From Kiritimatiellia bacterium (GTDB taxonomy: Bacteria; Verrucomicrobiota; Kiritimatiellia; CAIQIC01; Lenti-01): a DNA stretch of 63,001 bases. A model generated the notes under the pieces. It saw only the letters and a program-made list of their open reading frames with translations. It was not told the origin of the DNA and ran no database searches. Positions within the stretch are counted from its first letter, which is position 1. Each line of letters begins with the position of its first letter. The stretch covers positions 64,883-127,883 of the forward strand of contig JAFXQI010000026.1 in the NCBI GenBank assembly GCA_017527155.1, written 5' to 3'. The translations under genes were made by a program, and so were the position numbers. Shown in pieces: positions 2,332 to 55,372 of the stretch.

Positions 2332-2430
2332 TCAAGGCGGTGGAGTTCGGCGGCACGGGATTGCGTTCATGGAGGGGAGAATGGGGGAAAACCGCATGAA
2401 ACGTCAATGTTTTCCGTGTTCTCAAATGAC
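2332..2430 (-). promoter_or_regulatory. Leaderless-promoter-like element with 12-codon ORF, upstream of the CoA ligase
   Basis: On the minus strand TTGACG (2402-2407) is 18 nt from CATTCT (2378-2383), which is 7 nt from an ATG at 2370. The ATG opens a 12-residue ORF (MNAIPCRRTPPP) stopping at 2332. A flanking GAGAACACGGAAAA block precedes the -35. Geometry is identical to the copy at 10121-10213. If the boxes work, transcription would begin at or near this ATG and run into the ligase gene, making the ORF a possible leader peptide. Confidence 0.55.
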
Positions 2431-2470
2431 AAAGCCGGGACGGGCGCCAGGAGGGGGAGAGGGGGCCGGA

Positions 2471-3214
2471 TCAGCGGCGGGGGGTGCCGGCGGACGGCTG
2501 GGAGGCGAGGAGTTCGGTCTCGCTCGCGAGGAGGATGCGGTGGAGTTCCTTGGGGTCGTCGGTCTCGCGCATTTCCATGAGGAGGCTCGTCCGGTGGCAC
2601 ATCATGCACAGGCGCGCGAGGACATGCAGGTGGATGCGGTCGTCCTGGCAGCACACCAGGAAGAAGATGTCCGTCGTGGACCGGTCGGGCGACCCGAACG
2701 GGATCTGCGCGATGGTCTTGCCGACGACGATGAACGAGTCGAAGAACATGTACGGCTCGTGCACCCGCGGATGCAGCAGCGCGAGCCCGCCGGAGAGCGC
2801 CGTCGAACACAGCTTTTCGCGCTCGGTCAGGCTGTCGAGGAGTTCCTTGCGGTCGCCCACGAGTTCGGTGGAATCGGCCAGGGTCGCCATCTCGTCGAGT
2901 ACCGACGCCTTGGTCCGGCACGCCAGCGCGGGGGCGATCCACTCCGGGCGCACGAGGGACGGCATGATCGGCTCGTCCGCGGACACTTCGCGGCGGGCGG
3001 AACCGCTGCGGCGGTGGAAGGCTTCCAGGCGCTGGTCGTCGAGATGCAGGACGCGGTCGGACGCCCATTCGTCGATGTCGTGGTGCCGGAAGTGCAGGTG
3101 GCCGCCCTGGCGCAGGCAGGGGATTTCGCCGCGGCGGGCGAGTTCCTCCAGCGCCTTCTCCTGCATGCTGAGGTATTCGGCGGCTTCGGCCAGGTTGAAC
3201 ACGCGGAAAGGCAT
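2471..3214 (-). CDS. HTH - PTS EIIA (PtsN-like) fusion protein
   Basis: The product is 247 aa. Residues about 1-60 form an excisionase/MerR-type helix-turn-helix (FNLAEAAEYLSMQEKALEELA, then GEIPCLRQGGHLHFRHHDIDEW). Residues about 95-235 match the EIIA domain of the fructose/PtsN class, with LALLHPRVHEPY where PtsN carries GVAIPHGR, so a candidate phospho-His is present though the glycines are not. PtsN-type EIIA proteins are usually regulators rather than transporters. The fusion to a DNA-binding module suggests a phosphorylation-controlled regulator. The start overlaps nothing, and the downstream gene on this strand is separated by the element at 2332-2430. Confidence 0.85.
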   Translation of the reverse strand: MPFRVFNLAEAAEYLSMQEKALEELARRGEIPCLRQGGHLHFRHHDIDEWASDRVLHLDDQRLEAFHRRSGSARREVSADEPIMPSLVRPEWIAPALACRTKASVLDEMATLADSTELVGDRKELLDSLTEREKLCSTALSGGLALLHPRVHEPYMFFDSFIVVGKTIAQIPFGSPDRSTTDIFFLVCCQDDRIHLHVLARLCMMCHRTSLLMEMRETDDPKELHRILLASETELLASQPSAGTPRR

Positions 3215-3226
3215 GGCGGCGGCTCC

Positions 3227-3643
3227 TTACAGCTTGAGAAGGCCCGTGACGTAGCAGAACAGCAGCAGGACGCACGCCGCGAGCAGGCCCGCGGTGGACT
3301 TCGGGAAGGGGGAGCCGTCCGTGCGGCGGCGCAGGAGCTTCGACGCCATCGCCGCGCCGCCCGCCAGCAGCGTCGCCAGCAGGACCAGCGAGAAGAAGAG
3401 GTGGTTCTTCCAGAGCGTGTCCATCGGCCCCGCGCCGGGCGACCCCGACCCGTGCGCCGCACTCTTGCCCACCAGCGGCAGGATCATGCACAGGAACAGG
3501 AACAGCAGCCCGAAGACGATCGACAGGACGTTGCCGGCGCGCGGCGAAGCCAGGCGCGCGAGGAACGCATCGCGGAAGGAGGGAAGGCGCGCGAGGAACG
3601 CATCGCGGAAGGAGGGAGTCGGGCTGGGAGGGGGCTGTTTCAT
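3227..3643 (-). CDS. Small membrane protein with internal 11-residue duplication
   Basis: The protein is 138 aa from the ATG at 3643 (MKQPPPSPTP). Three hydrophobic segments are visible: about 43-65 (LSIVFGLLFLFLCMILPLV), about 85-103 (FFSLVLLATLLAGGAAM) and about 120-136. The N-terminal tail carries PSFRDAFLARL twice in tandem, encoded by a 33-bp direct duplication. I do not recognise a family. It lies 12 bp upstream of the HTH-EIIA gene on the same strand, so the two are probably co-transcribed. Confidence 0.75.
   Translation of the reverse strand: MKQPPPSPTPSFRDAFLARLPSFRDAFLARLASPRAGNVLSIVFGLLFLFLCMILPLVGKSAAHGSGSPGAGPMDTLWKNHLFFSLVLLATLLAGGAAMASKLLRRRTDGSPFPKSTAGLLAACVLLLFCYVTGLLKL
3553..3618. 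repeat. 33-bp tandem duplication inside a coding region
   Basis: Two adjacent copies of a 33-bp unit (3553-3585 and 3586-3618) are almost identical and preserve the reading frame of the membrane protein. The lack of divergence implies a recent slippage event. Confidence 0.9.
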
Positions 3644-5977: not shown

Positions 5978-5980
5978 AGC

Positions 5981-6115: not shown

Positions 6116-6176
6116 CAACTCTTGGGAACAGGAAAAACTTGATTGTTTCCATGCCTTTCCCCTATACTCCCCCACC
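6116..6176 (+). promoter_or_regulatory. Leaderless-type promoter of the paralogue-A gene
   Basis: After GGGAACAGGAAAA come TTGATT (6139-6144), an 18-nt spacer, TATACT (6163-6168), 8 nt of C-rich sequence and the ATG at 6177. With the normal 6-8-nt distance from -10 to +1, transcription would start at the ATG. No Shine-Dalgarno is visible. This is the best-preserved copy of the dispersed element. Confidence 0.65.
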
Positions 6177-7085
6177 ATGAACGACATCCTCCGCACAGCC
6201 TCCGCCCACACCCAGTCCGTCTTCGATGCCGCCTTTTCCCCCTTCCGCGGCGGGAACGGCGCCATCGGTCTCGCCTTCATGCCGGTTGTCCTCGGCGTGA
6301 CGGCGACCGCCTTCCTCGGCTTCCTCGCCACCGGGACCGGCGCGGCGCTCCTCGGCGAAATCCGCCGCCGCGGCCGCTTGCGCACCCCGCACCCCGAAAG
6401 CCCGTCGTTGCGCGGCACCCCGACCGCCAGGGAACTGAAGGACGATTGCGCACTCTCTCCCCGCACCCTCCGCGTCCGGCTGCGGATGGGGTCGCGTCTG
6501 GCCGACCTCGAGCCCACGCTCGACAGCGGCAACCACTACCGCCCGTCCCCGACCGGTGCCAAGCGCATCCAATCGCGCGGCCGCGGCATGCGCGGCTACA
6601 TTGCCGACAACCGCCTCGCCGTCAGCTACTCCACGCTCATGCGCTACCGCCTGCTCGCAATCCGGTTGCGCCGGCTCTTGCAGCTCGACGCCCGCCTTCC
6701 CCTCGAATGGCTGCTTCCCGGCGAAGCGCCCGACCGCGCACTCCCGGCCGATCTGCAGGTCCCCTACTCCACCGCCCGCCGACGCCTCGCGCGGCTCCTG
6801 CGCGAGCATTGGAACTTCGACCGCCTGCGCAAGCACGTCGATGGAAAGCTCGGGATTCCCGAACTCCTGACCGTCCGCCGCGCGAAGAAAGCGGAGAACG
6901 CGCGCAAGCCCGCCCACGGCCGGTCGGTGGTAATCGGCGACTACGCGGTGACGACGACGCCAACGCGCCTGGAAGCCACGATGCAGGCCTTTTCCCGATT
7001 CCTGGAAGAGCGCGACCTGCCGCCCAAACTCGCCGCCCACCGCGACCGGTTCGCGGCTTGGCTGGCCGCGGTCCCGCGGGCGTAA
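6177..7085 (+). CDS. Lineage-specific membrane-anchored protein, paralogue A
   Basis: I do not recognise the family. The product is 302 aa. Residues about 28-60 are hydrophobic (IGLAFMPVVLGVTATAFLGFLA), followed by a basic soluble part. Segments shared with the 308-aa protein at 54446: SPSLRGTPTA, RMGSRLADLEPTLD, GMRGYIADNRLAVSYSTLMRY, LPADLQVPYSTARRRLARLL, and SVVIGDYAV leading to RLEATMQAFSRFL. The two Y-S-T-x-x-R segments followed by Arg-rich helices look like nucleic-acid-binding helices, which is an inference. The start at 6177 is set by the conserved promoter element and by alignment of MNDIL with MKTIL of the paralogue. It stands alone between a tRNA and a convergent gene. Confidence 0.75.
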   Translation: MNDILRTASAHTQSVFDAAFSPFRGGNGAIGLAFMPVVLGVTATAFLGFLATGTGAALLGEIRRRGRLRTPHPESPSLRGTPTARELKDDCALSPRTLRVRLRMGSRLADLEPTLDSGNHYRPSPTGAKRIQSRGRGMRGYIADNRLAVSYSTLMRYRLLAIRLRRLLQLDARLPLEWLLPGEAPDRALPADLQVPYSTARRRLARLLREHWNFDRLRKHVDGKLGIPELLTVRRAKKAENARKPAHGRSVVIGDYAVTTTPTRLEATMQAFSRFLEERDLPPKLAAHRDRFAAWLAAVPRA

Positions 7086-10120: not shown

Positions 10121-10213
10121 TCAAGGGCGCAGTGGGGAGGGGGCATTTTCCATGGGCGGGAGGATGGGGGAAAAAGGCGGCAAACGTCAATGTTTTTCGT
10201 ATTCTCAAAAGTG
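10121..10213 (-). promoter_or_regulatory. Leaderless-promoter-like element with 10-codon ORF, upstream of the PMT-like gene
   Basis: Minus strand: TTGACG (10185-10190), 18 nt, CATCCT (10161-10166), 7 nt, ATG at 10153 opening MENAPSPLRP and a stop at 10121. The TTGACG and the bases around it are identical to the copy at 2332-2430. The ORF ends 34 bp before the PMT-like start. Confidence 0.55.
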
Positions 10214-12834: not shown

Positions 12835-15800
12835 AATGTGATTTGATGCTCTTTGAGAATGGGATACACTCGGTGCCTGGAACGCCCACGTCGAATTCGT
12901 GTTGTGATTTGATGCTCTTTGAGAATGGGATACACTCAAACGGGCAAAGCCCAATATCCCTTTTTGTTGTGATTTGATGCTCTTTGAGAATGGGATACAC
13001 TCCTTGACGGTGCGGGGCCGTCGCCCGTTCGTTGTGATTTGATGCTCTTTGAGAATGGGATACACTGGACGGCGTCCTTGGAGAGTTTGGCGTACGTTGT
13101 GATTTGATGCTCTTTGAGAATGGGATACACTACCACCCCGAAAGGGCGTCGTGTTCTGCGGTTGTGATTTGATGCTCTTTGAGAATGGGATACACTAATG
13201 GTCCGCTCCTCCGTGTACGTCGCGTTGTTGTGATTTGATGCTCTTTGAGAATGGGATACACTTTTTCTTCACGGCGCCCCAGACCCATACGGGTTGTGAT
13301 TTGATGCTCTTTGAGAATGGGATACACTCGGCGAAGGCTGCGGAGAGGTCGGCGATGAGTTGTGATTTGATGCTCTTTGAGAATGGGATACACTTTCAGC
13401 ATCCGCAACCGCCTGTACGAGTGGGTTGTGATTTGATGCTCTTTGAGAATGGGATACACTACAAAGCCGCAAAACGCATCACGAATCGTGTTGTGATTTG
13501 ATGCTCTTTGAGAATGGGATACACTGGGCTCCCGTGCGATGCACAGATGCGGTCGTTGTGATTTGATGCTCTTTGAGAATGGGATACACTCCCAAGGATG
13601 AAATGCCCCATCTGCCACGTGTTGTGATTTGATGCTCTTTGAGAATGGGATACACTTGGGTGTGGCTAATATGTTCCGATTCATTGTTGTGATTTGATGC
13701 TCTTTGAGAATGGGATACACTCGGTTTCCATAGCATCATCCCAAAGTGCCGTTGTGATTTGATGCTCTTTGAGAATGGGATACACTAAGGACAAGCGACA
13801 TGACCCAAAAGCTCAGTTGTGATTTGATGCTCTTTGAGAATGGGATACACTTCAGGCCGCACCTCGCTTGAAAGCCTTGTAGTTGTGATTTGATGCTCTT
13901 TGAGAATGGGATACACTGTCCCCCACCGTCACCACCCGCTGGATATTGTTGTGATTTGATGCTCTTTGAGAATGGGATACACTGCCCGCCCTTCAACCCC
14001 CGCGCCTTTGTTGTTGTGATTTGATGCTCTTTGAGAATGGGATACACTCGATGGCACATCCGGTAAAGACCTTCGATACGTTGTGATTTGATGCTCTTTG
14101 AGAATGGGATACACTTCATCCTGACGATCCAATCCTACAAGATGGGTTGTGATTTGATGCTCTTTGAGAATGGGATACACTCGCCTCCGGGCGGCTCCCT
14201 TTTTGCGTCCGGTTGTGATTTGATGCTCTTTGAGAATGGGATACACTAAAGACGGCCTCCGATTCCGGCGAAGACCCGTTGTGATTTGATGCTCTTTGAG
14301 AATGGGATACACTGGCATTTGCGCCGAATTGGCCGTCGTTATGTTGTGATTTGATGCTCTTTGAGAATGGGATACACTGAGCGGTTCGCCGCGCTGGTTG
14401 CAGAAGCGGTTGTGATTTGATGCTCTTTGAGAATGGGATACACTCGGGGGGAGTCTCGCCGGGCGCGGGCCAGGTTGTGATTTGATGCTCTTTGAGAATG
14501 GGATACACTGGTTGACGCCCCCACAATGCCATTGTGCCAGTTGTGATTTGATGCTCTTTGAGAATGGGATACACTGTCGGCATGTCCTTCTCCATGGATG
14601 CCCTCGTTGTGATTTGATGCTCTTTGAGAATGGGATACACTTGGCCGCCAAACTGGCCGCGCTGTCGGAAAGTTGTGATTTGATGCTCTTTGAGAATGGG
14701 ATACACTTGTTCTTTCGCTTCTTCTTTCATCTCACCGGTTGTGATTTGATGCTCTTTGAGAATGGGATACACTCATCCACACCTGCGGCGAGTGCCTGTC
14801 CTGTTGTGATTTGATGCTCTTTGAGAATGGGATACACTCACGTTGTCATTCCGGCACACCGTCACCGTGTTGTGATTTGATGCTCTTTGAGAATGGGATA
14901 CACTCTTCCATGCGTCCGGGTATTTCCTGCGCGGTTGTGATTTGATGCTCTTTGAGAATGGGATACACTGCACGCGTGGAAACCCGCTTCGCAGACCTGT
15001 TGTGATTTGATGCTCTTTGAGAATGGGATACACTGGAAGTGCGGGCATGGTCGGCAACTCCCTTGTTGTGATTTGATGCTCTTTGAGAATGGGATACACT
15101 TCAAGCCGCCCCGCGCTTGAACGCCTTGTAGTTGTGATTTGATGCTCTTTGAGAATGGGATACACTCTCTGGCAGTTCGGCTTGGAGACCCAGCAGTTGT
15201 GATTTGATGCTCTTTGAGAATGGGATACACTCCACGCCATGATTTGCCAGCCCGTCATCATGTTGTGATTTGATGCTCTTTGAGAATGGGATACACTCCC
15301 GCGCCGGTCGCGGCAATGGGTGCAGGCGTTGTGATTTGATGCTCTTTGAGAATGGGATACACTGACCCACTCCGTGCAGGGCTTCGTTCCACGGTTGTGA
15401 TTTGATGCTCTTTGAGAATGGGATACACTTCAAGCGCCTCGGTGACGGCCTGGTGCTGCGTTGTGATTTGATGCTCTTTGAGAATGGGATACACTCCTGC
15501 TACCTCCACCGCAACACCATCGACTGTTGTGATTTGATGCTCTTTGAGAATGGGATACACTCCACCCGCCGGAAGCCCTCTCGCGTGTAGTGTTGTGATT
15601 TGATGCTCTTTGAGAATGGGATACACTGTGCGCGCTGCGGGACAGGTACATGTTCATGTTGTGATTTGATGCTCTTTGAGAATGGGATACACTACGCTGA
15701 GGCGCTGGCGGGCGTTCGCTCCGGTTGTGATTTGATGCTCTTTGAGAATGGGATACACTTACTCCCCATACTCGATGTGGAAGTTGTCGTTGTGATTTGA

Positions 15801-16151
15801 TGCTCTTTGAGAATGGGATACACTGGACGCTTCCTCGACGGAATCCGGATTCTGTTGTGATTTGATGCTCTTTGAGAATGGGATACACTTTTCGTGTCGC
15901 AACGTCTCCCGCTTGTAGCGTTGTGATTTGATGCTCTTTGAGAATGGGATACACTCCCCTCCCGGTGCGCGTGCTTCCACTTCCAGTTGTGATTTGATGC
16001 TCTTTGAGAATGGGATACACTAGCCTGACGAACATCGTGCACGCGGGGAGGTTGTGATTTGATGCTCTTTGAGAATGGGATACACTCACGTTCCAGCGAG
16101 CATGATACCCGAGCGGTTGTGATTTGATGCTCTTTGAGAATGGGATACACT
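12835..16151 (+). CRISPR. Type II-C CRISPR array, 51 repeats and 50 spacers
   Basis: By hand count there are 51 copies of a 36-bp repeat that begins GTTGTGATTTG and ends GGGATACACT, spaced by 29-31-bp spacers (mostly 29 or 30). All repeats look identical except the first (12835-12870), which begins AAT instead of GTT. A degenerate repeat at the 5' end and an array pointing against the cas operon are features described for II-C loci. The plus strand is the likely crRNA sense because the 5' part of the repeat pairs with the anti-repeat at 21208-21236. Within each repeat TTGATG (repeat positions 9-14) and TACACT (31-36) are 16 bp apart, resembling the repeat-borne promoters of Neisseria II-C arrays. 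Confidence 0.99.
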
Positions 16152-16590: not shown

Positions 16591-17493
16591 TCACGGGAGA
16601 AATGACGGCAGGAGGAGATCCGGGGATTTTTCGAGGTAGCACCTGGCCAACGAAGCGGAGGTGGAGGTCAGGGCGATCATCAGGGGGCGCGTGAGTCCGC
16701 CGATGGTCACATCGCACGTCAGGCAGGAGAGGAGGCGGGCCTTGGCGGCCTTGTCCAACAGATGTCCAAGGGCGGATTCCGACACGGGAAAGTCGCCGAA
16801 CACGAACTGGTCGACGAAGGGGCGGTAGGCTTCCATCACGTCATCGGCCAGGCAAAAGGCGTTGTAGCGGTTGTGGTGGTGGATGCCGTGGAAACAGACG
16901 AGCCCGGAGCCGACAAGGGCCCGCGCGGTGGCAGCACGGAGGACTGCATAGCCGTAATCGAGAGCGGCATTGGGCCATCCTTCGCCGGGATTGCGCCGGA
17001 AGTCCGGCTCGGGGGCCAGCGCGCGGAAGTACAGCCTGGCGCCCTGGGCTTCGCAGTTGGCGGGGTCATCGTTGCGGACGGCCTCCGCCAAGCGTCCGAG
17101 CTGCTGGGCCTCCGGCCTGCCGAGGGATTCGAGCAAGGCGGCCTGGTTCCGCAATTTGGCCTGGACGATGCGCCGCCACAACCGGCCTTGCGCGGCCGGG
17201 GTGGCCGCCAGTTGGGCCTCGGCGGTTTCGTGGGTCGTGGAGTTCGCCGCAAAAGGCAACAACTGGGCGAGAGGGGTGTGGGCCGGGTCGCACACCACGA
17301 CGGCCACGTTCTCCGCCGCCAAGGTCTGGAGGCACGCGGAGGTCACGAGGATGCGGCCGGTTTCAAGGATGACGAAGCCCAAGTCCTCGACGGGGAACGT
17401 CCGGTGGAGGCCGTCTTCCCCGTCATAGACCAGTTGCCGGTCGCGGATGGAGAGTTTGCCGGGGGAACCGAAGGACAGGGTTTTCGCTATCAT
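16591..17493 (-). CDS. cas1: CRISPR-associated integrase Cas1 (type II)
   Basis: The 300-aa product begins MIAKTLSFGSPGKLSIRDRQLV, typical of type II Cas1. It carries the metal-binding residues Glu148 (NCEAQGARLYF), His205 (GIHHHNRYNAFCLADD) and Glu221 (DDVMEAYRPFVD). Cas1 catalyses spacer insertion at the leader-end repeat. The start codon overlaps the cas9 stop as ATGA, so the genes are translationally coupled. Confidence 0.97.
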   Translation of the reverse strand: MIAKTLSFGSPGKLSIRDRQLVYDGEDGLHRTFPVEDLGFVILETGRILVTSACLQTLAAENVAVVVCDPAHTPLAQLLPFAANSTTHETAEAQLAATPAAQGRLWRRIVQAKLRNQAALLESLGRPEAQQLGRLAEAVRNDDPANCEAQGARLYFRALAPEPDFRRNPGEGWPNAALDYGYAVLRAATARALVGSGLVCFHGIHHHNRYNAFCLADDVMEAYRPFVDQFVFGDFPVSESALGHLLDKAAKARLLSCLTCDVTIGGLTRPLMIALTSTSASLARCYLEKSPDLLLPSFLP

Positions 17494-20400
17494 GGATTCC
17501 CGGAATCCATGAAGCGGATGGACCCATCCAGAAGGACCCGGAAATGGATGCCTTCGAATAGGACTTGGTTGCGGTAGGTCGAAGGGCTGATTCTCAACAG
17601 CTCATGCGGAATATTCAGTGAAATAGACGACTCTCCCTTTCCGCGTTTGCCTGCCGCCGACAAAGCCGCCGACAGGACCGTGCTGGGGCGTGCTTCTGCA
17701 TGGAAACGCAAGGTCATCAATCCATTTTTTTCGAATTTGACGACCTTGTAGAGACGATTGCGGAGGCTTGCTGGTGCAAGTGCCTGCAGTTCTCCTGGGT
17801 TGTCCGGGGCATGGACCAAGGCCATGTTGCCGGGCTTGACGTATCCCAGGAATCCCTCCTGTCCGTGCAAGGGGACGTAATCCGGCTTCTTGTGTTCCTG
17901 CGCCCACGAGAGGGAATTGTCGGGGACGACCGAAAAGCGCCCGTTTTTCAGGAACAAGGCCAGCCGGAAGTTGCTGCCTTCGGCAGTCGAGACGTAGTAG
18001 GGCGTCTTGTGCTCCTGCCGGGAAGGCATGGCGTGGTCGCGCAAACGGACTGGGCCGACAGAAGTCAAGGCATACACCCGCACGCGGCGGATGGGAACGC
18101 CGGAAGGCATGGCGATTTCGCCCGCGAGGAAGGCGGTCTTGCCAGAGGCTTCGGCGGATTGGACGGCGGCTTCCACGATGGCGCGGATGGTGGGATCCAC
18201 GATGCTCCCCGCGAGGGCCTTGACGTCGGAGACCTTGCCTTCCAGGGGCTTGCGGACGACGAATTTCTTTTCGTTGCTCCCCGGGACCTGGATGCAACCG
18301 TAGAAGGTGTCCTTGTGGAGGGCGCCGCGCACGGTGTCGCCGCGGGAGAGGACGGCCTTGACGGGTTTGCCGCCGGGGTTGTCCTTGGGCGGGTGGGCCT
18401 TGGCGAGGACGTTGCGCTTGGAACTCTGGCGCAGGGTGGTCTGGCGGAGGATGTGCTTCACGAGGATGCCGTCGGTGGCGCGACGGACGGTCCCGGCGAA
18501 GTCCCGGAAGGGTGGCGGGCAGACGTCGCAGGGGCGGCGTCGGTCGCGTCCGTCGTCCTTGAGGGCGGAACAGATGGCGTTGAAGCGGGCGGGGCTCAGG
18601 GCGGCGATGACCATGGCGTCGGTGGCGTGATGGGTGTGCTCGTTGCGGTCCTTGGCGTCGTCGGTCTGGATGCCCCAGGCCTTGCGGGCGAAGGCGGTGG
18701 CGGTGCCGTTGACGGTGTAGGTGTGCGGGTAGAGGGCCTTGAGGAGGTCGACGGCGTGGCGGGCCATGATGCCGGTATCCACGAGCTGGCGTTTCTTGAA
18801 GCCGGTCAGATCGCCCGTTCCGAACGCGAGCTGTTCGCGGGTGGCGTCAAAGCGGCGCAGTTTGTCGCGCCAGTAGTCGCGCTCGAAGCGCAGGGAGAGG
18901 GCCTTGATGCGGGCGTTGGCGCGGGCCTGGGGGTCGGTGGCGGCACGGGCCTTGCTCTGGGCGGATTTGACGGACTTCTCCAGCTGCTCCAGCTTTTCGC
19001 GCCACGGCTGGAGGCGGAGTTCGATTTCGTCCCAGTTGGGGCAATCGCGCGGGATGTTGCCTTTCTTGGTCTGGCGGTTGTAGGCCATCTCGCAAAGGGT
19101 CTTGTTGGCCAGGGAGTCGTCGCCGGAAAGGCTGCGGGGAACGGTGTGCTCGATGTCGAAGGGGGCGTTCCGCGAGGCGTTCAGCAAATCCGCCAGGGAA
19201 ATGCTCCTGTCGGTGTAGAGGCACTTGCATCCCTGCTCCTGCCAGAGGATGTAGCGGTCGACGAGGTCTTCGGTCGGGGCGGCCCCGGCCGCGGCGATGG
19301 CTTGCCGGGCGTCTTCGCGCTGGTCCTGCCGCTTCTTCTGCCAGGCTTGCCAGGCCTTGCGGGTGGCGTAGTCGTTGACGTTGCGGGCGAGTTCGATGCG
19401 GATGGTGGTGGATGGGTCGATCTTGCCGTGGTCGCCGAGGTAGTTGACGAGGCGGCGGAGGGTGGTCATGGAGCGCTGCACGAGCGGGTTGCGGATCATG
19501 CCCAGCTCGACGCGCGGCAGGCGCGGCTTGGGGAGGGGCGCGCCGCGGGTTTCGGTCTGGGGGACGTAGGGGCTTTCGTCGCGCAGGTAGAGGCGTTTCC
19601 AGTTCGCCTCGTCCACACCGCAGTTTTCCTCCAGCCAGGCGCGCCAGCGGTCCATCAGGGGGACGAGCGGGGCTTCGTCGCGGGGGGCGCCTTCGCGGGT
19701 GCGGTTGGCGCGCTCGCGGCGGTAGGCTTCTTCGATGCCGAGAAGGGCGCGCAGGATGGCGTCCTTGCGGGCGGCGAAGTCCGGGATGATGTCGGCCAGC
19801 TTGGCGAAGAAGCGGGCGTCCGAGAGGACATAGCCGTCCCGGAGGTACGGGAGGATGCGGCGGATCGCCTTCAGGGAATACTGGGCGTTGCCTTCGCGCG
19901 GGCGGAGCTTCAGGAAGCGCTCGGCGGCGTCCGCGGAGAGCCCGGGATGGTGCTTGGCCAGCCAGCCGCGCAGTTTGTCGGTGTCGTCGTAGAAGGTCAG
20001 GGCGTCGAACTCGGCCTGGTAGGAGAACGGATCCGCGCCGTCGCCCTTGCCGAAGATGTCCCCGAGGCGGTGGAGGAGCGTGCAGCTGGGGAGGGTTTCC
20101 TCGTTGCGGTAGTAGTGGAAGCGCAGGTGGTCGCGCTTGAAGCGCGGGTCCTTCTTGAAGAGTTTGGCGATGTCCCCGAACTTGAAGGTCGGCGATGCCT
20201 TCATGAACGCCTTGCGGACAAGCGCCCGGTCCTCCGCGGTCAGCGGATACAGCGGATGGCCCACGGCGTCGCGCCACTCGCCGGCGGCGTCTTCCAGGGT
20301 CAGGTTGTTGATGAACGCCAGCATCCTGAACTCCTCGAAGGCCGGATGCGCGATTTGCGCGCGCGGGCTCTTCGGTTCGAGCGGGCAGGGACCGATGAGG

Positions 20401-21170
20401 TGCGCCTGCGACCGCAGCGGGCGCTGGTCGAAAATCGCCTTGTGCAGGCTCTCGCGGAGCTTCGGGTCGATGGCCGCGCCCTGGGCTTCCATGATGGCGG
20501 CGAATTCCGTTTCGTAGTGCTCGATGCGGCCCGTGTAGCGGGCACGGATGCGGCGCTTGGAGGGCTTGTCCCGGTCCTCTTCGAGGCACTTCCAGAAGTA
20601 CTGCCCCAGCGTCTTGCAGCCTGCGGCCCGGATTTCCGCGGTCAAGGCCTGGATGCCCGTCTTGACCGCCCCCGTTTCGCTCCGGTCGCCGTCGCCGTCC
20701 GCCTCCGCCGCATCCTTGCGGGAACTCTTGAAGCCGCGGCGTTGCGCGAGGTGGTAGAGCGCCCGGCCCAGCACTTCCGGCGCCACCGGCCCGGCCGCCG
20801 CCGCCGCGCGGTCGCAGTAGGGATTGCTCGCGTCGGTCGCCTTCAGCCAGCGGATGAACGCCTGGTTGCCCGTGGGGTAGCGTCCGTGGGCTTTCCAGTC
20901 CGCCAGCTCCTCCTTCGTGATCGGGCACATCCCGTGCTCCAGCAGGACGGAGAGCAGCTTCCACTTGCGGATTTTCCGGTGGAACTTGATGCGGCGGGCC
21001 ATCCGGGCCGCCCGGCGTATGGCGGCGGGCGTCTGCAAGGAATCGTCGGCGGGGTTGATTCCCTCCGGGAAGACCAGCACGCCCGAATCGAGGATGTTCC
21101 CCGTGTCGTTGTCCAGAATCGCCCAACCCAGCGAGTTGGAACCCAAATCCAGCCCCAGCGTTTTCTTCAT
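17490..21170 (-). CDS. cas9: Type II-C CRISPR effector nuclease Cas9
   Basis: The 1226-aa RNA-guided nuclease has an intact catalytic set. RuvC-I is LGLDLGSNSLGWA with Asp8, and an Arg-rich bridge helix (IRRAARMARRIKFHRKIRKW) covers residues about 51-70. RuvC-II is IRIELARNVN with Glu593. The HNH motif is FDIEHTVPRSLSGDDSLANK with His675. RuvC-III is THHATDAMVIA with His848 and Asp851. The C-terminal ~300 residues form the PAM-interacting region. Length is at the upper end for II-C. The start is the ATG at 21170 (MKKTLGLD); the frame stays open upstream but that stretch covers the tracrRNA. There is no cas4 or csn2, so the subtype is II-C. Confidence 0.98.
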   Translation of the reverse strand: MKKTLGLDLGSNSLGWAILDNDTGNILDSGVLVFPEGINPADDSLQTPAAIRRAARMARRIKFHRKIRKWKLLSVLLEHGMCPITKEELADWKAHGRYPTGNQAFIRWLKATDASNPYCDRAAAAAGPVAPEVLGRALYHLAQRRGFKSSRKDAAEADGDGDRSETGAVKTGIQALTAEIRAAGCKTLGQYFWKCLEEDRDKPSKRRIRARYTGRIEHYETEFAAIMEAQGAAIDPKLRESLHKAIFDQRPLRSQAHLIGPCPLEPKSPRAQIAHPAFEEFRMLAFINNLTLEDAAGEWRDAVGHPLYPLTAEDRALVRKAFMKASPTFKFGDIAKLFKKDPRFKRDHLRFHYYRNEETLPSCTLLHRLGDIFGKGDGADPFSYQAEFDALTFYDDTDKLRGWLAKHHPGLSADAAERFLKLRPREGNAQYSLKAIRRILPYLRDGYVLSDARFFAKLADIIPDFAARKDAILRALLGIEEAYRRERANRTREGAPRDEAPLVPLMDRWRAWLEENCGVDEANWKRLYLRDESPYVPQTETRGAPLPKPRLPRVELGMIRNPLVQRSMTTLRRLVNYLGDHGKIDPSTTIRIELARNVNDYATRKAWQAWQKKRQDQREDARQAIAAAGAAPTEDLVDRYILWQEQGCKCLYTDRSISLADLLNASRNAPFDIEHTVPRSLSGDDSLANKTLCEMAYNRQTKKGNIPRDCPNWDEIELRLQPWREKLEQLEKSVKSAQSKARAATDPQARANARIKALSLRFERDYWRDKLRRFDATREQLAFGTGDLTGFKKRQLVDTGIMARHAVDLLKALYPHTYTVNGTATAFARKAWGIQTDDAKDRNEHTHHATDAMVIAALSPARFNAICSALKDDGRDRRRPCDVCPPPFRDFAGTVRRATDGILVKHILRQTTLRQSSKRNVLAKAHPPKDNPGGKPVKAVLSRGDTVRGALHKDTFYGCIQVPGSNEKKFVVRKPLEGKVSDVKALAGSIVDPTIRAIVEAAVQSAEASGKTAFLAGEIAMPSGVPIRRVRVYALTSVGPVRLRDHAMPSRQEHKTPYYVSTAEGSNFRLALFLKNGRFSVVPDNSLSWAQEHKKPDYVPLHGQEGFLGYVKPGNMALVHAPDNPGELQALAPASLRNRLYKVVKFEKNGLMTLRFHAEARPSTVLSAALSAAGKRGKGESSISLNIPHELLRISPSTYRNQVLFEGIHFRVLLDGSIRFMDSGNP

Positions 21171-21187
21171 GTTGACTCCGTTCATCC

Positions 21188-21297: not shown

Positions 21298-21378
21298 GCA
21301 TTCTTCGCCTTCCGATACCAGTCTTTTCTTGCGGTGTGATTTTTTCCGCATGGACGCACCCTCTCTTCCCGGGCGGCG

Positions 21379-25082: not shown

Positions 25083-25127
25083 TGCGGCCCTCCCCCCTTC
25101 CCCTCCTTTCCAGCCCTTCCGCAACAC

Positions 25128-25187
25128 ATTTGGCAACAGGAAAATCCCCATGTTTTCCGCCCTGTTTCAGCTATTCCCTCCTCCATG
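25128..25187 (+). promoter_or_regulatory. Dispersed leaderless-promoter-like element upstream of ferredoxin
   Basis: TTTGGCAACAGGAAAATCC is followed by TGTTTTCCGCC, TATTCC (25172-25177), 7 nt and an ATG at 25185 opening MNIHPV. The -35 slot is degenerate. The orientation matches the downstream gene. Confidence 0.5.
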
Positions 25188-25363
25188 AACATCCATCCCG
25201 TCCGGCGCCCTTTCCTCCCGCTGTTTTCCCCCATCCCGTCCGCCCGCGCACGATTCCGCGCACGATTCCGCTTGCTTTCCGTTTCCGGGGGACTATGGTG
25301 CAGGGAAAGGTTCCGCGTGGGACCGTGCAAGCCCCGAAACGACAAGAGAAGAGAGGTTTTATC

Positions 25364-27041: not shown

Positions 27042-27164
27042 GCAGTGGAAAAGGAGGCGACACGATGGATGGCGGCTGCACGATTCCTTGCCCCTCTCCG
27101 ATCGCGTCCAGCCCCTCCCCCACTCCCCCCTCTCCGCGCGCACCCATCCATCTGCGATATCAAG

Positions 27165-27211
27165 GAAAATCCCCGCATCCACCGCCCTTTTTCCCCACAC
27201 CGTCCACCATG
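27165..27211 (+). promoter_or_regulatory. Degenerate dispersed element upstream of the GlpD-like gene
   Basis: CAAGGAAAATCCCC, a pyrimidine-rich stretch with CTTTTTCC, and CCACCATGAACATCCACGG resemble the 3' half of the dispersed promoter-like family. No -35 or -10 is convincing. Confidence 0.35.
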
Positions 27212-27463
27212 AACATCCACGGGTTCCCCCGGCCCTTCCCGCGGTCCATCTCCACGCGTTCTTCCCGTCGCCCGCCGTGCATTCCACTGTCCGCGCGCGA
27301 CGCCGGCCCCATTCCGTTTGCCTGCCGACGGCGGGGGCGCCGACGCTGCGCACCCGGGCCGCCCAGGGGATGCGCAAAGCGCCCGGACAGCGCGTTCCCC
27401 ACATTCCCGCTCGCCATTTTCCCCGCGCCCGTGCATACTGCCGTGAAACCCTTGGAGGCACCC

Positions 27464-31412: not shown

Positions 31413-31437
31413 ATGTTTTTCCCCATCATCCTGCCTG

Positions 31438-32273: not shown

Positions 32274-32336
32274 CTGTTTTGGAAACAGGAAAATCCTGCG
32301 GTTTTCCTGCGGTTTCCATCCATCCTGCGGACCATG
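32274..32336 (+). promoter_or_regulatory. Dispersed leaderless-promoter-like element upstream of the STAS gene
   Basis: TTTTGGAAACAGGAAAATCC is followed by GGTTTTCC, CATCCT (32321-32326), 7 nt and the ATG at 32334 opening MNIPPP. The -35 slot is weak. The real gene start is 127 bp further on. Confidence 0.5.
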
Positions 32337-32460
32337 AACATTCCACCGCCGCCAGCGCCCCCGCCGCCGGCGGGTGCGGCGCGGACGTTTTTGGTGTGCA
32401 TCGGGGCGGGGAATGGTGTAGAAAGGGTGGGATTCACGGAAAGAACGAAAGGAACAGGCC

Positions 32461-38786: not shown

Positions 38787-38812
38787 CCCGCCCCCCGCGC
38801 TCCCCGCTCCGC

Positions 38813-39235
38813 TTTTGGTGGGGCGAGCTCTCCGAGCGAGCCGCCTCGACCCACCGCATTTTCTTTGACTCCGGACCTCGGACTTCGGACCTCCCCCTTC
38901 CTCCCCCCGCCGTGGCTCCCCTCGGGTAGGGTCGCGCTTCCGCGCGACCTTTCGTCTCGGACGCGCAGAAGCGCGTCCCTCCCCCTGCCGCCCCCCGTCC
39001 CCCGCCGACGGCGAGCGCGCCGTTGCTCCGCACCGTGCCCCCCCCGCTTTTGGTGGGGCGAGCTCTCCGCGCGAGCCGCCTCTCCCCACCGCATTTTTCG
39101 ACTCCGTCCCCCGAACGTCTCATCTCCCCCTTCCTCGCCCCGCCGTGGCTCCCCTCGGGGAGGGTCGCGCTTCCGCGCGACCTTTCGTCGCGGACGCGCA
39201 GAAGCGCGTCCCTCCCCCTGCCGCGCACCGTCGGT
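38813..39235. repeat. Duplicated ~235-bp block of REP plus two hairpin repeats (38787-39274)
   Basis: Two direct copies (from about 38813 and about 39047) each contain a GGTGGGGCGAGCTC REP half, the phrase CCACCGCATTTT, CCGTGGCTCCCCTCGG, a GGTCGCGC-TTCC-GCGCGACC hairpin and a GACGCGC-AGAA-GCGCGTC hairpin (38960-38977, 39193-39210). The copies differ at several positions. The region holds no gene I can support. Confidence 0.88.
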
Positions 39236-40664: not shown

Positions 40665-40934
40665 GCTATCGGGTTTGGATTCGTACCATAAGCCACCGCG
40701 CGCCCGCCCGCAAGCCCTTTTTTCGCCCCGGCGCCGTTTTGCCTCCATCTCCGCCGCGTACAAGGGGCTGACCCTCCCGGGGCGGAATCCTGCGCGGCCG
40801 CCGGCGGATGCCCCGTCGCCTCGCATGGGAACACGGGCCCGCGCGATGGAGGAACGGAACCGCGATCGGCCCCGGACCGCCCCCCAACCCGTCTCGAACC
40901 ACCCGCCGTCCGCCTCTCGCCGTCCCGTCTTTTT

Positions 40935-40998
40935 CATGGAGGAGGAATGGCCCGGGAACCGCAAGAAACCTCGACATTTCCCGTAATCTCGAATGCAC
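40935..40998 (-). promoter_or_regulatory. Dispersed leaderless-promoter-like element upstream of tRNA-Ser (40665-41072 intergenic)
   Basis: Minus strand: CGAGATTACGGGAAATG, a TCGAGG block near the -35 slot, CATTCC (40944-40949), 6 nt, ATG at 40937 opening MKKTGR. It shares its first block with the copies at 153 and inside 55158-55215. It points toward tRNA-Ser and codB. I see no gene in the rest of this 400-bp region. Confidence 0.45.
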
Positions 40999-49229: not shown

Positions 49230-49269
49230 GGTCCTCGATTCCCCTCCCCCATCCCTCCCGCCGCCCTGT

Positions 49270-49367
49270 CTTTTGATAACACGAAAAAAACCTACATTTT
49301 CCCCATCTTTCCCCCCGCATCCCCCGCCATGAAAAACCGTCCTGTTCCCGCCCGGAATCGGGGTTGA
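49270..49367 (+). promoter_or_regulatory. Dispersed element with 12-codon ORF upstream of the O-antigen ligase
   Basis: TTTTGATAACACGAAAAA is followed by TACATTTTCCCC, a C-rich tract and the ATG at 49329 opening MKNRPVPARNRG, which stops at 49367. The ORF ends 76 bp before the ligase start. The -10 slot is poor. Confidence 0.5.
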
Positions 49368-49443: not shown

Positions 49444-51411
49444 ATGAACACCCCCATACCCGACCTCTACGACGATGCCGCCCTCCGCCGTCCCTCCTGG
49501 CCCTGCCGCATCTGGAGCGCGCTGGCGATGCTGCTCCTGCTCTGGCCCGTCAGCGGCGGCATGTACCTGCTGGCGTCGACGCGGACCTGGAGCTGGTCGA
49601 TCGGGCTGGTGCTGGCCTTCACGGGCTGCGCGATGGTGTTCCTGCGCCCGGTGTTGTTCCCGCGCGAGGGATTCGGGTGGCGCATTCCGTGGCCGTGGCT
49701 CGGCTTCGCGGCGGTGGTGGCCGTCCTTGCGGCCATCTACCCCCGCGCTTTCGTTCCCTGCGAAGCCCGCTGGGAACTGCTCAAATGGCTCTGCCTGTGC
49801 CTGGCGGCGCTGGCCTGGTGCCAGTGCGGGGGGAGCGGCGGCGAGCGCTGGAAATTCTTCGCGTTCCTGCTGATGCTGGCGCTGTCGGTGGAGTGTTTTT
49901 ATGCCATCTCCAAGCACATCGACCACTCCCGCGCGGTCCTGTGGATGCAACGCCCCGACCAGTACGGCATGCGCGCGAGCGGCACCTACCTCTGCCCCAA
50001 CCACCTCGCCAACGCCCTGGCGATGGGCTTTCCGCTGGCCCTCCTTCTGCTGTTCTCGTCCGCGGCCGGGGCACCGCTGCGCCTGATGGCGGTCTACTAT
50101 CTCGCCGTCTCCGCGCCCGTCCTCTACTGGACCCAGTCCCGCAGCGGATGGGGCGGGATGCTCGCCGGCGTGGCCGCCGCCGCCGTCCTCGCCGCCTGGC
50201 GCAAGGGCGGCGCGAAGTGGCTTGCCATCGCCCTCGTCGCGGTGCCGCTGGCGGGCGCGGCGCTGGGCTTCGGCGCGTGGAAGGCCCTTCCGGCGGTACG
50301 CGAACGCATCGGTGCCGTCATCGAAGACCCGATCAAGGCCGGCGGCATCCGCTCCAGGATGTGGGCCGACATCCCGGCCATGCTCCGCGACCGCCCCACG
50401 ACCGGCTTCGGCGGCGGCTCCTTCCTCTGGGCCTACCCACCCTACCGCGTCCACACCGACCAGAAACTCACCTACGACCAGCTCCACAACGATCCCCTCC
50501 AGATTCTCGTCGAGTACGGGGCCGTCGGCGGAGCGCTCGTCTTCGGACTCTACCTCTGGACCGGCATCCTCTTCGCCGTCCGCGCCGTCCGCTCGCGCGA
50601 CGACGACGTCGCTCTCCTCTCCACCGCCGCAGCGGGCGCCCTTGCCGCCTCCGCCCTGCATTCGCTGTTCGACTTCAACTTCCACGTCTTCCCGAATCCC
50701 CACATCCTCGTCATGCTCTGCGGACTGGCCCTCGGACGCCACGCCGCGCGCGCCGGCGGCGGCATCGCCGTGCGCGGACGCATCCCGGCGGCGGCGCTGT
50801 CGGCCGCCGCGGTCGTCCTGTGCGGCGCGGGACTCTGGTACTCGCTCTCCGGCGGCTTCTCCTACTGGTGGACCCTCAAGGGCGAGGCTTCCCGCTCCTC
50901 CCTCGATCTCGACTACGCCGCCTCGGAAGCCTGCTACCGCCGGGCCATCCGCTGGCAGCCCTCCAACTGGCAGCCCTGGCTCGGGCTCGGCGACCTCCAG
51001 TCCACCCGCGCCATGTGGTACCGCGCGCCCGATCCCGAAGCGCAGGCCGCCGGACGGCGCCGTCTCGTCGCCGACGCCCTCGACGCCCTCGCCGAGGCCG
51101 AACGCCTGAACCCGGGCGACATGGCCGTCGAGATCGCCTTTGCCCGCGCCGAAAGCGCCGCCGGCAACGACGAAGCCGCGCTCGAACACATCCGCCGCGC
51201 CGCCACCTACCAGCACCGGCACGCCTACTACCGCGAAGAACTCGGCTTCCAGCTCCTCCGCATGGGGCGCGAAGACGAAGCCCTGGCCGTCTTCAAGCAG
51301 AACATCGCCGACAAGGTCGCCAGCGGCGACTCCTGGACCCAGGTCCGCGTCCTCGAACGCCGCGCCGCCAAACGCACCAAGGCCGCCACCGAAGCCGCCC
51401 CCGCGAACTGA
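49444..51411 (+). CDS. O-antigen ligase-family membrane protein with C-terminal TPR
   Basis: The 655-aa product has eleven or so helices. The Wzy_C/WaaL signature region is YWTQSRSGWGGMLAGVAAAAVLA (about residue 225) and the large periplasmic loop is RSRMWADIPAMLRDRPTTGFGGGSF, then TYDQLHNDPLQILVEYGAVGG with the conserved His. TPR-like repeats fill residues about 490-640 (SEACYRRAIRWQPSNWQPWLGLGDLQ). It attaches or polymerises lipid-linked glycans at the periplasmic face. It complements the acetylation genes upstream. Confidence 0.93.
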   Translation: MNTPIPDLYDDAALRRPSWPCRIWSALAMLLLLWPVSGGMYLLASTRTWSWSIGLVLAFTGCAMVFLRPVLFPREGFGWRIPWPWLGFAAVVAVLAAIYPRAFVPCEARWELLKWLCLCLAALAWCQCGGSGGERWKFFAFLLMLALSVECFYAISKHIDHSRAVLWMQRPDQYGMRASGTYLCPNHLANALAMGFPLALLLLFSSAAGAPLRLMAVYYLAVSAPVLYWTQSRSGWGGMLAGVAAAAVLAAWRKGGAKWLAIALVAVPLAGAALGFGAWKALPAVRERIGAVIEDPIKAGGIRSRMWADIPAMLRDRPTTGFGGGSFLWAYPPYRVHTDQKLTYDQLHNDPLQILVEYGAVGGALVFGLYLWTGILFAVRAVRSRDDDVALLSTAAAGALAASALHSLFDFNFHVFPNPHILVMLCGLALGRHAARAGGGIAVRGRIPAAALSAAAVVLCGAGLWYSLSGGFSYWWTLKGEASRSSLDLDYAASEACYRRAIRWQPSNWQPWLGLGDLQSTRAMWYRAPDPEAQAAGRRRLVADALDALAEAERLNPGDMAVEIAFARAESAAGNDEAALEHIRRAATYQHRHAYYREELGFQLLRMGREDEALAVFKQNIADKVASGDSWTQVRVLERRAAKRTKAATEAAPAN

Positions 51412-51462: not shown

Positions 51463-51519
51463 CCCCTCCTTCCCATCCCGCTCCCCCTCCGTTTTCCCAG
51501 ACCCCCCCCGTCTCTCCTG

Positions 51520-51581
51520 CTTTTGGAAACAGGAAAAAACCCAACTTTTTCCTGTCTTTCGCCCCCCATCCCCCCACCATG
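51520..51581 (+). promoter_or_regulatory. Dispersed leaderless-promoter-like element upstream of the zinc-ribbon gene
   Basis: TTTTGGAAACAGGAAAAAA, CTTTTTCC, CATCCC (51567-51572), 6 nt and the ATG at 51579 opening MKNIPVLPRG. The frame from this ATG runs without a stop into the zinc-ribbon protein, so a 34-residue N-terminal extension is possible. Confidence 0.5.
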
Positions 51582-51680
51582 AAAAACATTCCCGTCCTCC
51601 CCCGCGGGTTGCGGTTGCGGCGGAGGCGGGAATTGCGGTATAAGGAACCCATCCGTCAACGGAAGAAAGGTTCGGTACGC

Positions 51681-53910: not shown

Positions 53911-54329
53911 GTTCCGGCCTTCCACTTGGGGAGGTTGTATTCGTGGAGTTCGGTAGCGCTGTTCCACCTGATGTGGTAGCCCATGATGTTGGTTCCGGAG
54001 TAGGCGTCGGGGGGCATCTTGTTGCCGGGGGATTTCTTGCCGCTGCGGGAGGCGCCGGTGTGGATGCCAAAGAAAGGGGGACCATCGTTGGCGGTGCCGA
54101 TGCGACGCCGGTTCCGGGGGAGGAAATGGCGCACGGCCACCGGACCGGCCTGTCCGGTGGCACCGGGGACAACGGCGGTCTTGGTGGTGTCCATCCTCCG
54201 TCCGCGCAACGGGGCCGGACCGCGCCGCGAGAGGGTGTCGCGGGCCGTCATCGCTTCGCCGCGCGCCCGGAACGCAACCGCGAGGTTCGCCCCGATGAAT
54301 CCGCATCCGCCTGTAACCACGATTTCCAT
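53907..54329 (-). pseudogene. Truncated NAD-dependent epimerase remnant
   Basis: The 140-codon frame opens with a convincing extended-SDR N-terminus (MEIVVTGGCGFIGANLAVAF, then DTLSRRG), as in CDP-paratose or UDP-sugar epimerases of about 300-340 aa. After roughly residue 45 the similarity is lost: no YxxxK motif and no substrate domain, only an unrelated tail. It is best read as a decayed or fused 5' fragment. Its stop overlaps the DUF2851 start, so it may still be translated for coupling. Confidence 0.65.
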
Positions 54330-54401
54330 GACCGTTCCGTACTGTCCCACATTTCCCCCTTCCCCGTCCAGCCGTTTCCGCAGGATGTCGTAGGATTATG
54401 G

Positions 54402-54445
54402 AAAACCACTTGACTTGTTTTGGAAATTCGACCATCATTATCCCC
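54402..54445 (+). promoter_or_regulatory. Leaderless-type promoter of the paralogue-B gene
   Basis: GGAAAACCAC is followed by TTGACT (54410-54415), an 18-20-nt spacer, ATCATT/CATTAT (54434-54441), then CCCC and the ATG at 54446. No Shine-Dalgarno is visible. The arrangement parallels the promoter of paralogue A. Confidence 0.55.
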
Positions 54446-55372
54446 ATGAAAACCATCCTCGACAACACGGCCTCCACCCTCCGCGGCCTCCATGGCATGA
54501 ACCGCAATCTCGTCGGTCCCGGCGCTGACCGCCTCCTCCCCATCCTCCTCGCCGTCACGCCCGCCGTCTTCGCTGCCTTCGCCCTCGGCGAAATCGGCTC
54601 GTGGGTCCTCGACGAAATCGCCCGCCAGGTCCGCATCCGCGAAAAGCGCCCCGACTCCCCCTCCCTCCGCGGAAAGCCCACCCCCGCCGACCTCGAACGC
54701 GAATGGGCCGCCCTCCCCCGCCGAGACCTGGCGACCTGCCTGCGCCTCGGGTCCCGCCTGGCCGACCTCGATCCCACCCTCGACCGCACCCTTCTCTGCA
54801 CCCCCCTCCCCAGCGGCAAGAAACTCATCCGTTCCCGCAAAGGCGGCATGAAAGGCTGGCTCTGCGACCACCGCGTCCGCGTCGGCTACTCCACCGCCAT
54901 GCGCTACAAGAAACTCGTCCAGCGCCTCCGCCATATCCTCGCCCTCGACGACCGCCTCCCCTTCGAATGGGTCATGGACGGCCTGCCCGATGGCCAGTCC
55001 CTTCCTGCCGACCTCGCCGCCCCCTTCTCCACCGCCCGCCGCCGCCTCGCCACGATCCTCCGCGAAAACCATTCCCTCGCGGCCCTGTCGCGTTTTGCGG
55101 AAGCCAAACTCGGCATCGTCCGACTTGTCACCGTGAGCAGGGTGCGCCCGGTCCGCCATCGCGCGACTACCGGAAAACTACGGAAATCGCACGGATTTTC
55201 CGTAATCTCGCATGACTGCAGGGCCAATGTTTCCCCGGGGAGACTGGACGCGACGAAACAAGCCATGGCACGAATCCTCATGGCCGGGAATTCGTCCGGC
55301 CCCGCGAGGCATCTCCGGAACCGCATCGCGGTGTGGCTGAGCGGAATCGAACATTCCGCGGCCTCGCACTGA
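54446..55372 (+). CDS. Lineage-specific membrane-anchored protein, paralogue B
   Basis: The 308-aa protein is homologous along its length to the 302-aa protein at 6177 but matches no family I know. There is a hydrophobic N-terminal helix (about 30-50, LPILLAVTPAVFAAFALGEIG). Conserved blocks are SPSLRGKPTP, RLGSRLADLDPTLDR, GMKGWLCDHRVRVGYSTAMRY, LPADLAAPFSTARRRLATIL and RLDATKQAMARIL. The ATG at 54446 aligns with that of paralogue A; 54398 is also in frame. Near its 3' end the DNA carries a copy of the dispersed element block in antisense (55158-55215). Confidence 0.75.
   Translation: MKTILDNTASTLRGLHGMNRNLVGPGADRLLPILLAVTPAVFAAFALGEIGSWVLDEIARQVRIREKRPDSPSLRGKPTPADLEREWAALPRRDLATCLRLGSRLADLDPTLDRTLLCTPLPSGKKLIRSRKGGMKGWLCDHRVRVGYSTAMRYKKLVQRLRHILALDDRLPFEWVMDGLPDGQSLPADLAAPFSTARRRLATILRENHSLAALSRFAEAKLGIVRLVTVSRVRPVRHRATTGKLRKSHGFSVISHDCRANVSPGRLDATKQAMARILMAGNSSGPARHLRNRIAVWLSGIEHSAASH
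55158..55215 (-). repeat. Antisense copy of the dispersed element inside paralogue B
   Basis: The minus strand reads CGAGATTACGGAAAATCC, GATTTCCG and GTTTTCC, close to the copies at 153 and 40935. In the coding direction it specifies GKLRKSHGFSVISH. Confidence 0.5.

Follow-up and report, generated by a model that had tools for sequence, protein, structure and literature searches.

A dispersed promoter-like element in a genus of Kiritimatiellia matches the 5' ends of a multicopy gene family

Introduction

Why should one short, promoter-like sequence recur in front of unrelated genes? We examined a 63,001-nucleotide stretch from the genome of a Kiritimatiellia bacterium (assembly GCA_017527155.1, contig JAFXQI010000026.1, positions 64,883 to 127,883 of the forward strand); "the window" means this whole stretch. 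An initial annotation, made from the letters alone, had described a dispersed element at 11 places in the window and took it to be a mobile or amplified cassette with a leaderless promoter and a leader peptide. We found that the element makes up the 5' end of genes in a multicopy family, which we call X (about 300 amino acids), and that in some copies the ATG of the element opens a real gene. This link to family X, as read from the sequences, is the key new fact.

Our best explanation is that the element is the operator/promoter unit of the X genes and that it was copied, without the X coding region, to a few hundred intergenic places. Our confidence in this account is evenly divided. It builds on a repeat with a fixed layout, its identity with X 5' ends, the agreement of its box class with X clade, the duplication of a unit of about 68 base pairs (bp), and its restriction, among the relatives searched, to one genus; a parallel box family lies beside X homologues in a second genus. 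None of the titles listed for Kiritimatiellae (rumen and gene order) or for leaderless promoters in Verrucomicrobia deals with the element, and no paper was listed for intergenic repeats in Kiritimatiellae.

The element and its copies in the window

The unit spans about -60 to +8 around a conserved ATGAA and consists, in order, of a box, two T tracts, CATNCT, a run of C, and the ATG. The box comes in the classes TTTTGRAAACAGGAAAA, GAGATTACGGAAAA, and GCGATATCAAGGAAAA. Information profiles from 30 and then from 120 copies had edges near -60 and +8 and showed conservation at TTTTG, GGAAAAC, TTTTC (near -30), TTTTC (near -20), CCCCATCCT (about -16 to -8), and CCATGAA. There are 30 occurrences of the 13-mer GGAAACAGGAAAA in the genome (3.23 Mb) and none of its reversed control, which excludes a chance origin. 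In those 30 copies, the ATG lies 51–55 nucleotides (nt) from the start of the 13-mer (exactly 53 nt in 21 of them).

We searched the window, with filters off, using a sequence model of the element (R1). Ten of the 11 places in the initial annotation match at E < 0.001, although these scores are partly by construction, as seven of the ten matches helped to build R1. The matches are at 51520, 32277, 25127, 2358(-), 10141(-), 6119, 49270, 144(-), 27163, and 40927(-), the last being the weakest (E = 8.6e-4). At the eleventh place, 54402, R1 matches the 3' half only (E = 0.06); this place proves to be an X promoter whose box has diverged. The features are as follows, with copies that lack an X gene called orphans.

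145..213, - strand: orphan copy with a GAGATTACGG box, ATG at 153, in a convergent gap (R1 E = 3.8e-7).
2362..2430, - strand: orphan copy with a GAGAACACGG box, TTGACG-18-CATTCT-7-ATG, ATG at 2370 (R1 E = 2.2e-15); it has a 12-codon open frame, and the next gene (930-2243) encodes an AMP-binding enzyme.
6117..6185, + strand: copy forming both promoter and start of an X gene, with TTGATT-18-TATACT-8-ATG and the ATG at 6177 (R1 E = 1.9e-14).
6177..7085, + strand: X gene of 302 amino acids, unnamed family, with an apparent N-terminal hydrophobic segment (by eye) and a part around YSTLMRY that looks like a helix-turn-helix (from the structure model, by eye).
10145..10213, - strand: orphan copy with a GAGAATACG box, TTGACG-18-CATCCT-7-ATG, ATG at 10153 (R1 E = 3.2e-15).
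25125..25193, + strand: orphan copy with a GGCAACAGG box, ATG at 25185 (R1 E = 1.6e-15), 417 nt ahead of the called start of argininosuccinate synthase (25602).
27149..27217, + strand: orphan copy with a GCGATATCAAGG box, ATG at 27209 (R1 E = 1.4e-6).
32274..32342, + strand: orphan copy with a GGAAACAGG box and the exact 13-mer, ATG at 32334 (R1 E = 8.4e-17).
40929..40997, - strand: orphan copy, the weakest, with a GAGATTACGG box, ATG at 40937 (R1 E = 8.6e-4).
49269..49337, + strand: orphan copy with a GATAACACG box, ATG at 49329 (R1 E = 3.9e-14), 115 nt before an O-antigen ligase-like gene (49444-51411) whose sister-genome orthologue has another, different copy at this position.
51519..51587, + strand: orphan copy with a GGAAACAGG box and the exact 13-mer, ATG at 51579, 174 nt before the gene at 51753 (R1 E = 3.5e-17).
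54386..54454, + strand: diverged copy forming the promoter of a second X gene, with box GGATTATGGAAAAC and TTGACT, ATG at 54446 (3' half only against R1, E = 0.06).
54446..55372, + strand: X gene of 308 amino acids.

The geometry reported for the clearest copies (TTGAYK, 18 nt, YATNCT, 7-8 nt, ATG) can be read from the sequence at 2358, 6119, and 10141. A motif like a Shine-Dalgarno (SD) sequence at -16 to -5 is present in 0 of 45 X starts and in just 1 of 107 other copies. As for direction, the first copy was correctly singled out as an exception, since it lies in the gap between a + gene that ends at 66 and a convergent - gene at 422-853. Of the ten remaining copies, nine do face the next called gene, and the copy at 32277 does so only if a weak call of 108 amino acids at 32461 is accepted. 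The genes behind the window copies are unrelated (argininosuccinate synthase, a permease, an O-antigen ligase-like protein, an AMP-binding enzyme, and a glycerol phosphate oxidase-like protein).

The element begins the genes of family X

Seventeen X paralogues were aligned. A search for X gave 41 matches in each of two genomes, with 40 places scored in each; as at least one gene is split in two, each genome has at least 40 copies. To describe their promoters, we used 45 of 48 frames and dropped two with odd starts and one fragment. ATGAA is present at 44 of the 45 starts, though the choice of starts favored ATGAA or ATGGA after C. All 45 could be assigned a box class, and the class follows the X clade: GCGATATCAAG in 15 of 15 genes of one clade, TTTGRRAACA in 20 of 20 across two sub-clades, and a GAGATT-like box in 10 of 10 of the rest. 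On the X tree, the three classes require two changes, which is the minimum possible (shuffled mean, 20.5).

In the structure model of X, the mean predicted local distance difference test score is 75; parts of the core are above 90 and the N-terminus is low. By eye, the model appears to place a hydrophobic-looking helical region at the N-terminus and, in the core, a pair of helices resembling a helix-turn-helix. X gave no match to a transposase. No conserved right end was seen in the 3' flanks of 17 X genes (one of these flanks is cut short). Among other X genes, the one at locus L045 stands directly before an unrelated gene and overlaps it by ATGA, and the one at L081 stands just before a gene that reads, by eye, like adenylosuccinate synthetase.

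Most copies are orphans with weaker promoters and no leader peptide

Most copies of the element lack an X gene, show no coding signal beyond the ATG, and have a weaker -35. A -35 of TTGACA type (at least 5 of 6 positions) is found in 25 of 45 X starts versus 17 of 107 orphans (p = 2e-6), and the orphan count is raised by three X copies (L018, L059, and L089) that are included in the 107. The controls for the orphans gave 2 of 107 (shifted) and 119 of 2140 (shuffles). For the X copies, a leaderless promoter, as in the initial annotation, is predicted with support from the sequence; for the other copies the case is weak. Many of the genes behind orphans seem to carry their own -35/-10 pair close to the start (by eye and uncounted).

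ATGAA is present in 98 of the 107 orphans, and X-like box classes account for 50, 24, and 13 of them, with the other 20 being intermediate or of another kind. Thus, the same box is found before X, the presumed regulator, and before its putative targets. The orphan ATG gives no sign of translation: in 102 copies, frame 0 and frame +2 are about equally open (p = 0.90), and the coding score is negative. We therefore rejected a leader peptide or attenuator, the other half of the cassette proposed initially. At the gathering score, Rfam finds only two tRNAs in the window.

The unit is copied, within one genus among the relatives searched

When R1 was scanned across genomes, as the initial annotation had proposed doing with a profile, it gave at least 150 matches in this genome (G000; all at E <= 7.1e-5) and at least 150 in a sister species (G001), the only other species of the genus that was searched. 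At E <= 0.001, 26 of 27 other relatives had no match, and the remaining one had a single match at 2e-4. By these searches, the element is restricted to the genus among the relatives covered. Long contigs that we sampled hold 49 copies in 453 kb of G000 and 81 in 660 kb of G001, which perhaps scales to roughly 300 or more copies per genome, an estimate that leans upward because the sampled contigs were mostly known already from element matches. The contig sample had 139 matches at E <= 0.05, of which 130 were carried on; the nine dropped were one overlap on the opposite strand and eight with E > 0.01 (a match at 0.015, window 40927, was kept). The 122 distinct copies that were read out are a non-random sample: they combine the copies with the 13-mer, the top matches, and roughly half of those that scored less well.

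The two closest pairs among 103 orphans have an identity of 94% over -58 to +8. In one pair, the copies are separated by 1 kb (L117). The second pair comes from two different contigs (L101 and L106), with flanks that are 40% and 48% identical, as compared to a mean of 35.5% for all pairs of flanks. Similarly, L068 and L074 have an identity of 0.87 and flanks of 0.30 and 0.27. Across the 25 best pairs, flank identity ranges from 17% to 75%. In the printed pairs, the edges are at about -60 and +8, and some pairs extend to +30 or +40. Near-identical units with flanks near background imply that the unit is duplicated, which bears out the amplified element of the initial annotation. In sequence terms, it also has the property by which putative mobile promoters are recognized: near-identical sequence ahead of non-homologous genes with unrelated flanks. 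No inverted ends or target duplications were noticed, by eye, in 13 printed pairs.

In G001, the orthologue of the copy at window 10141 appears to be split by an insertion (L153 3700-3839 and L152 1-100, two contig ends), with inverted ends GTTCTTCGG... and a target of about 10 bp duplicated.

A second genus has a parallel box family

X homologues were found in 26 of 387 genomes drawn from the phylum, both genomes of this genus included (six were scored per genome). A genome from another genus (G003) has 10 distant X homologues. The upstream region is readable for four of these (L238, L241, L244, and L247), and three of the four have a box of the GATTTYACGTGAAAA type; the remaining homologues start at contig edges or are unresolved. 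At up to one mismatch, GATTTYACGTGAAAA has 32 matches in G003 (one place is counted on both strands), versus 0 for the control, 2 in G002, and none in G004 or G006. A model from 20 of the G003 box places has 108 matches at E <= 0.01 in G003 and 0 in four other X-bearing genomes. By eye, the G003 orphans share the box and two T tracts with the genus of the window. A parallel box family lies beside X homologues in this second genus. We also considered whether a palindromic operator before an X homologue in another genome (G302) is a dispersed box and rejected it: it occurs at two places in G302, and without mismatches at 0 places in six of the other seven genomes, with one unlike match in G143.

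A proposed control region of X genes that spreads without them

In our proposal, the element would be the 5' control region of X, made up of an operator-like box, two T tracts, a leaderless promoter of sigma-70 type, and the start codon. X would bind the box and control its own promoter; we infer this because the modeled core is helix-turn-helix-like and because the box shifts with X clade. The orphans would be bound by X as well and might act on the neighboring gene as operators or weak promoters, or they might be passive passengers. The unit of about 68 bp would be copied without visible inverted ends.

Several observations weigh against this account. DNA binding by X is a guess. Pfam has no X match at 0.001, and the strongest hit above that threshold, still weak, is to Phage_Bbp19 (6 of 17 members, E = 0.0024); NCBIfam and PHROGs gave nothing convincing for X, and PDB sequences gave no X match below E = 0.25. 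Foldseek on the X model found none below E = 1.5, though this alone does not make the fold new. A second structural look aligned X to domain IV of DnaA (Z = 3.5, 71 residues, root-mean-square deviation 3.1), which is weak and a lead only. The membrane segment of X was read by eye in a low-confidence part of the model. As for the box classes, shared descent alone may explain their agreement with X clade, their patterns were written after the sequences were seen, and the genes with a GAGATT-like box do not form one clade. The sampled copies yielded no empty site, so insertion as such is not directly supported; the search yielded a single locus with both flanks collinear (G000 C29 13525 / G001 C16 17579), which was uninformative. 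In the second genus, the orphans lack the promoter and the ATG, so the copied part differs; R1 finds nothing in G003, and the likeness of the two box families was judged by eye. Finally, other X-bearing genomes have no dispersed box by the models tried.

A bolder version, which we offer tentatively and would not expect to hold in full, is that of a genomic symbiont: a family of membrane-tethered, DNA-binding X proteins and a promoter-operator unit, start codon included, that replicates itself into hundreds of intergenic places, possibly at the junctions of reshuffled transcription units, where it would rewire or insulate genes, with separate, co-diverged versions in two genera.

If the X control region has indeed been copied hundreds of times without transposon ends, then promoters and operators can themselves be mobile units, and copying of a control region without its gene would be an unusual route for the spread of bacterial control sequences. 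The genus would have copies, sub-classes, and recent, nearly identical pairs in sufficient number for the copying to be studied, and X would supply candidate regulators along with the boxes that match them, from which binding specificity could be read off.

Placement of the copies and a genome-wide regulon

An autoregulated transcription factor with a large regulon has its box before its own gene and before many others. The element resembles such a system in that the same box precedes the gene of the presumed regulator (X) and many other genes, and the orphans could be working operators or promoters under selection, with the X paralogues as regulators. We consider this unlikely. In its favor, the blocks of the element are conserved at fixed spacing across otherwise diverged copies, and copies in tandem gaps mostly point at the next gene. 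Genes were called with a home-made codon score trained on 13 stretches of the window. Just 3 of the 122 distinct copies lie inside called genes (2 when the genes were called more strictly). Of the gaps of at least 110 nt in the contigs that we sampled, about 30% carry a copy (Table 1), and copies in tandem gaps point with transcription 50 times and against it 10 times (p = 1.6e-7). In our proposal, this bias would arise because copies firing into oncoming transcription are selected against.

Table 1. Gaps of at least 110 nt that carry a copy.
This genome (G000): tandem 26/92, divergent 11/29, convergent 5/21.
Sister genome (G001): tandem 33/133, divergent 23/51, convergent 13/39.

The claim that copies lie upstream of, and in the same direction as, the next gene is thus largely true, with exceptions. 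Of the 98 copies that have genes called on both sides (stricter cut-off), 53 lie in tandem gaps and point the same way, 5 lie in tandem gaps and point the opposite way, 25 lie in divergent gaps, and 15 lie in convergent gaps; these last 15 weigh against a regulon. When the upstream gene has the same direction, its stop is at least 95 nt before the ATG of the element (95-116 nt in 31 of 77 cases); as it is never closer than 95 nt, the footprint may reach about 40 nt past the box.

Shared genes of the two species are about 97% identical (median of 59 pairs). Among 28 pairs of orthologous 5' sides, the element is present in both species in 5 (one an X gene), in one only in 7, and in neither in 16 (odds ratio 8, p = 0.06); at the 3' sides, the counts are 2, 3, and 17 (p = 0.04). 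There is thus some retention, and yet of 12 copies that stand at an orthologous 5' side, 7 occur in one species only, despite the high gene identity. Before the Wzy-like and AMP-binding genes, both species have an element before the promoter, of different sequence (by eye). Recent, sequence-templated duplication, fast turnover, the unrelatedness of the downstream genes (named in the window only), and the nearer promoters that many genes seem to have all set the element apart from the regulon of an autoregulated factor.

Gene order between the two species

Gene order is scrambled nearly transcription unit by transcription unit between this genome and the sister genome. In the samples compared, it is cut into blocks of about 0.5-5.5 kb, and 59 of 64 block ends are away from contig or stretch ends. 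The copies might mark or join in this shuffling as junction or recombination elements, which strikes us as quite improbable. Blocks this small at about 97% gene identity would fit, as would the fate of gaps of at least 110 nt: 28 with an element are broken and 0 collinear, versus 40 and 12 without (p = 0.006). (Short gaps were 9 broken and 44 collinear.) However, these are small numbers, counts were taken in both directions, and shared gaps were counted twice; by side, the counts are 16/0 versus 15/6 for G000 (p = 0.03) and 12/0 versus 25/6 for G001 (p = 0.16). The difference is seen in gaps of 110-249 nt (7/0 with an element versus 7/8 without, p = 0.02), whereas gaps of 250 nt or more are nearly all broken either way (20/0 versus 33/4). 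Furthermore, 30 of 59 breakpoints carry an element, which is about what an occupancy of about 30% in each of two genomes predicts, and the element may simply be young. As a cause of gene shuffling, then, the element shows an excess of broken gaps and yet a breakpoint count that fits occupancy; we set it aside as a cause and kept it as a rival.

Known mobile repeats

Putative mobile promoters were reportedly described by Matus-Garcia and others in 2012 and by van Passel and others in 2014; they are also cited in a passage of PMC8049555. The element is like them in being a short promoter-like sequence that is copied before unrelated genes and has no transposase of its own. It is unlike them in having hundreds of copies in one genus, a box class tied to a multicopy protein family, and a -35 that is degraded in most copies.

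Repetitive extragenic palindromes (REP) and REPINs, with their RAYT transposases, have many short intergenic copies, in sequence classes that are each linked to a protein class (PMC3116915 and PMC8049555). The element matches that description in being short, intergenic, multicopy, and divided into several classes each linked to a protein class, and it departs from it in having no palindrome or hairpin, in being directional, and in ending in a start codon; X, unlike RAYT, has no Y1 transposase match and is itself multicopy. Could the element nonetheless be a REP or a non-autonomous, MITE-like transposon that is moved by a transposase elsewhere in the genome? The high copy number, intergenic location, and sharp edges of the copied unit are as expected, and the genome has Y1 transposase genes (four matches, three over the cut-off). 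But RNAalifold on 35 copies gave -0.15 kcal/mol and no compensatory pair, there is no R1 match (E <= 1) in the 12.7 kb of sequence around the four Y1 (Y1_Tnp) matches, no inverted ends or target duplications were noticed in the 13 printed pairs, and X has no match to a transposase. We doubt this explanation strongly.

Last, these might be ordinary leaderless promoters of a GC-rich genome, alike by convergence; a leaderless class does exist here, as a minor one (TANNNT at -13 in 9 of 114 starts, versus a mean of 0.54 per position, beside 52 of 114 SD-like starts), but the lack of matches in 26 of 27 other genomes, the near-identical copies with unrelated flanks, and a box that is conserved outside the core promoter make this highly implausible.

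Other features of the window

At window positions 12835-16150 and 17490-21461 there is a long array with 65-66-nt spacing beside a Cas9-like gene (HNH, RuvC_III, and Cas9_a matches). A REP-like repeat, GGTGGGGCGAGCTCTCCGAGCGAGCC, occurs with inverted partners at 30353-31451, 38790-39097, 51431, and 58583-58876. Allowing up to six mismatches, it is absent from the four Y1 transposase loci of this genome that were read; at up to four mismatches, it is present at 43 places in 453 kb. Two other dispersed repeats lie at 26931-27089 (about 159 nt) and 275-407 (about 130 nt), and they have at least about 39 and at least about 18 matches, respectively, in G001.

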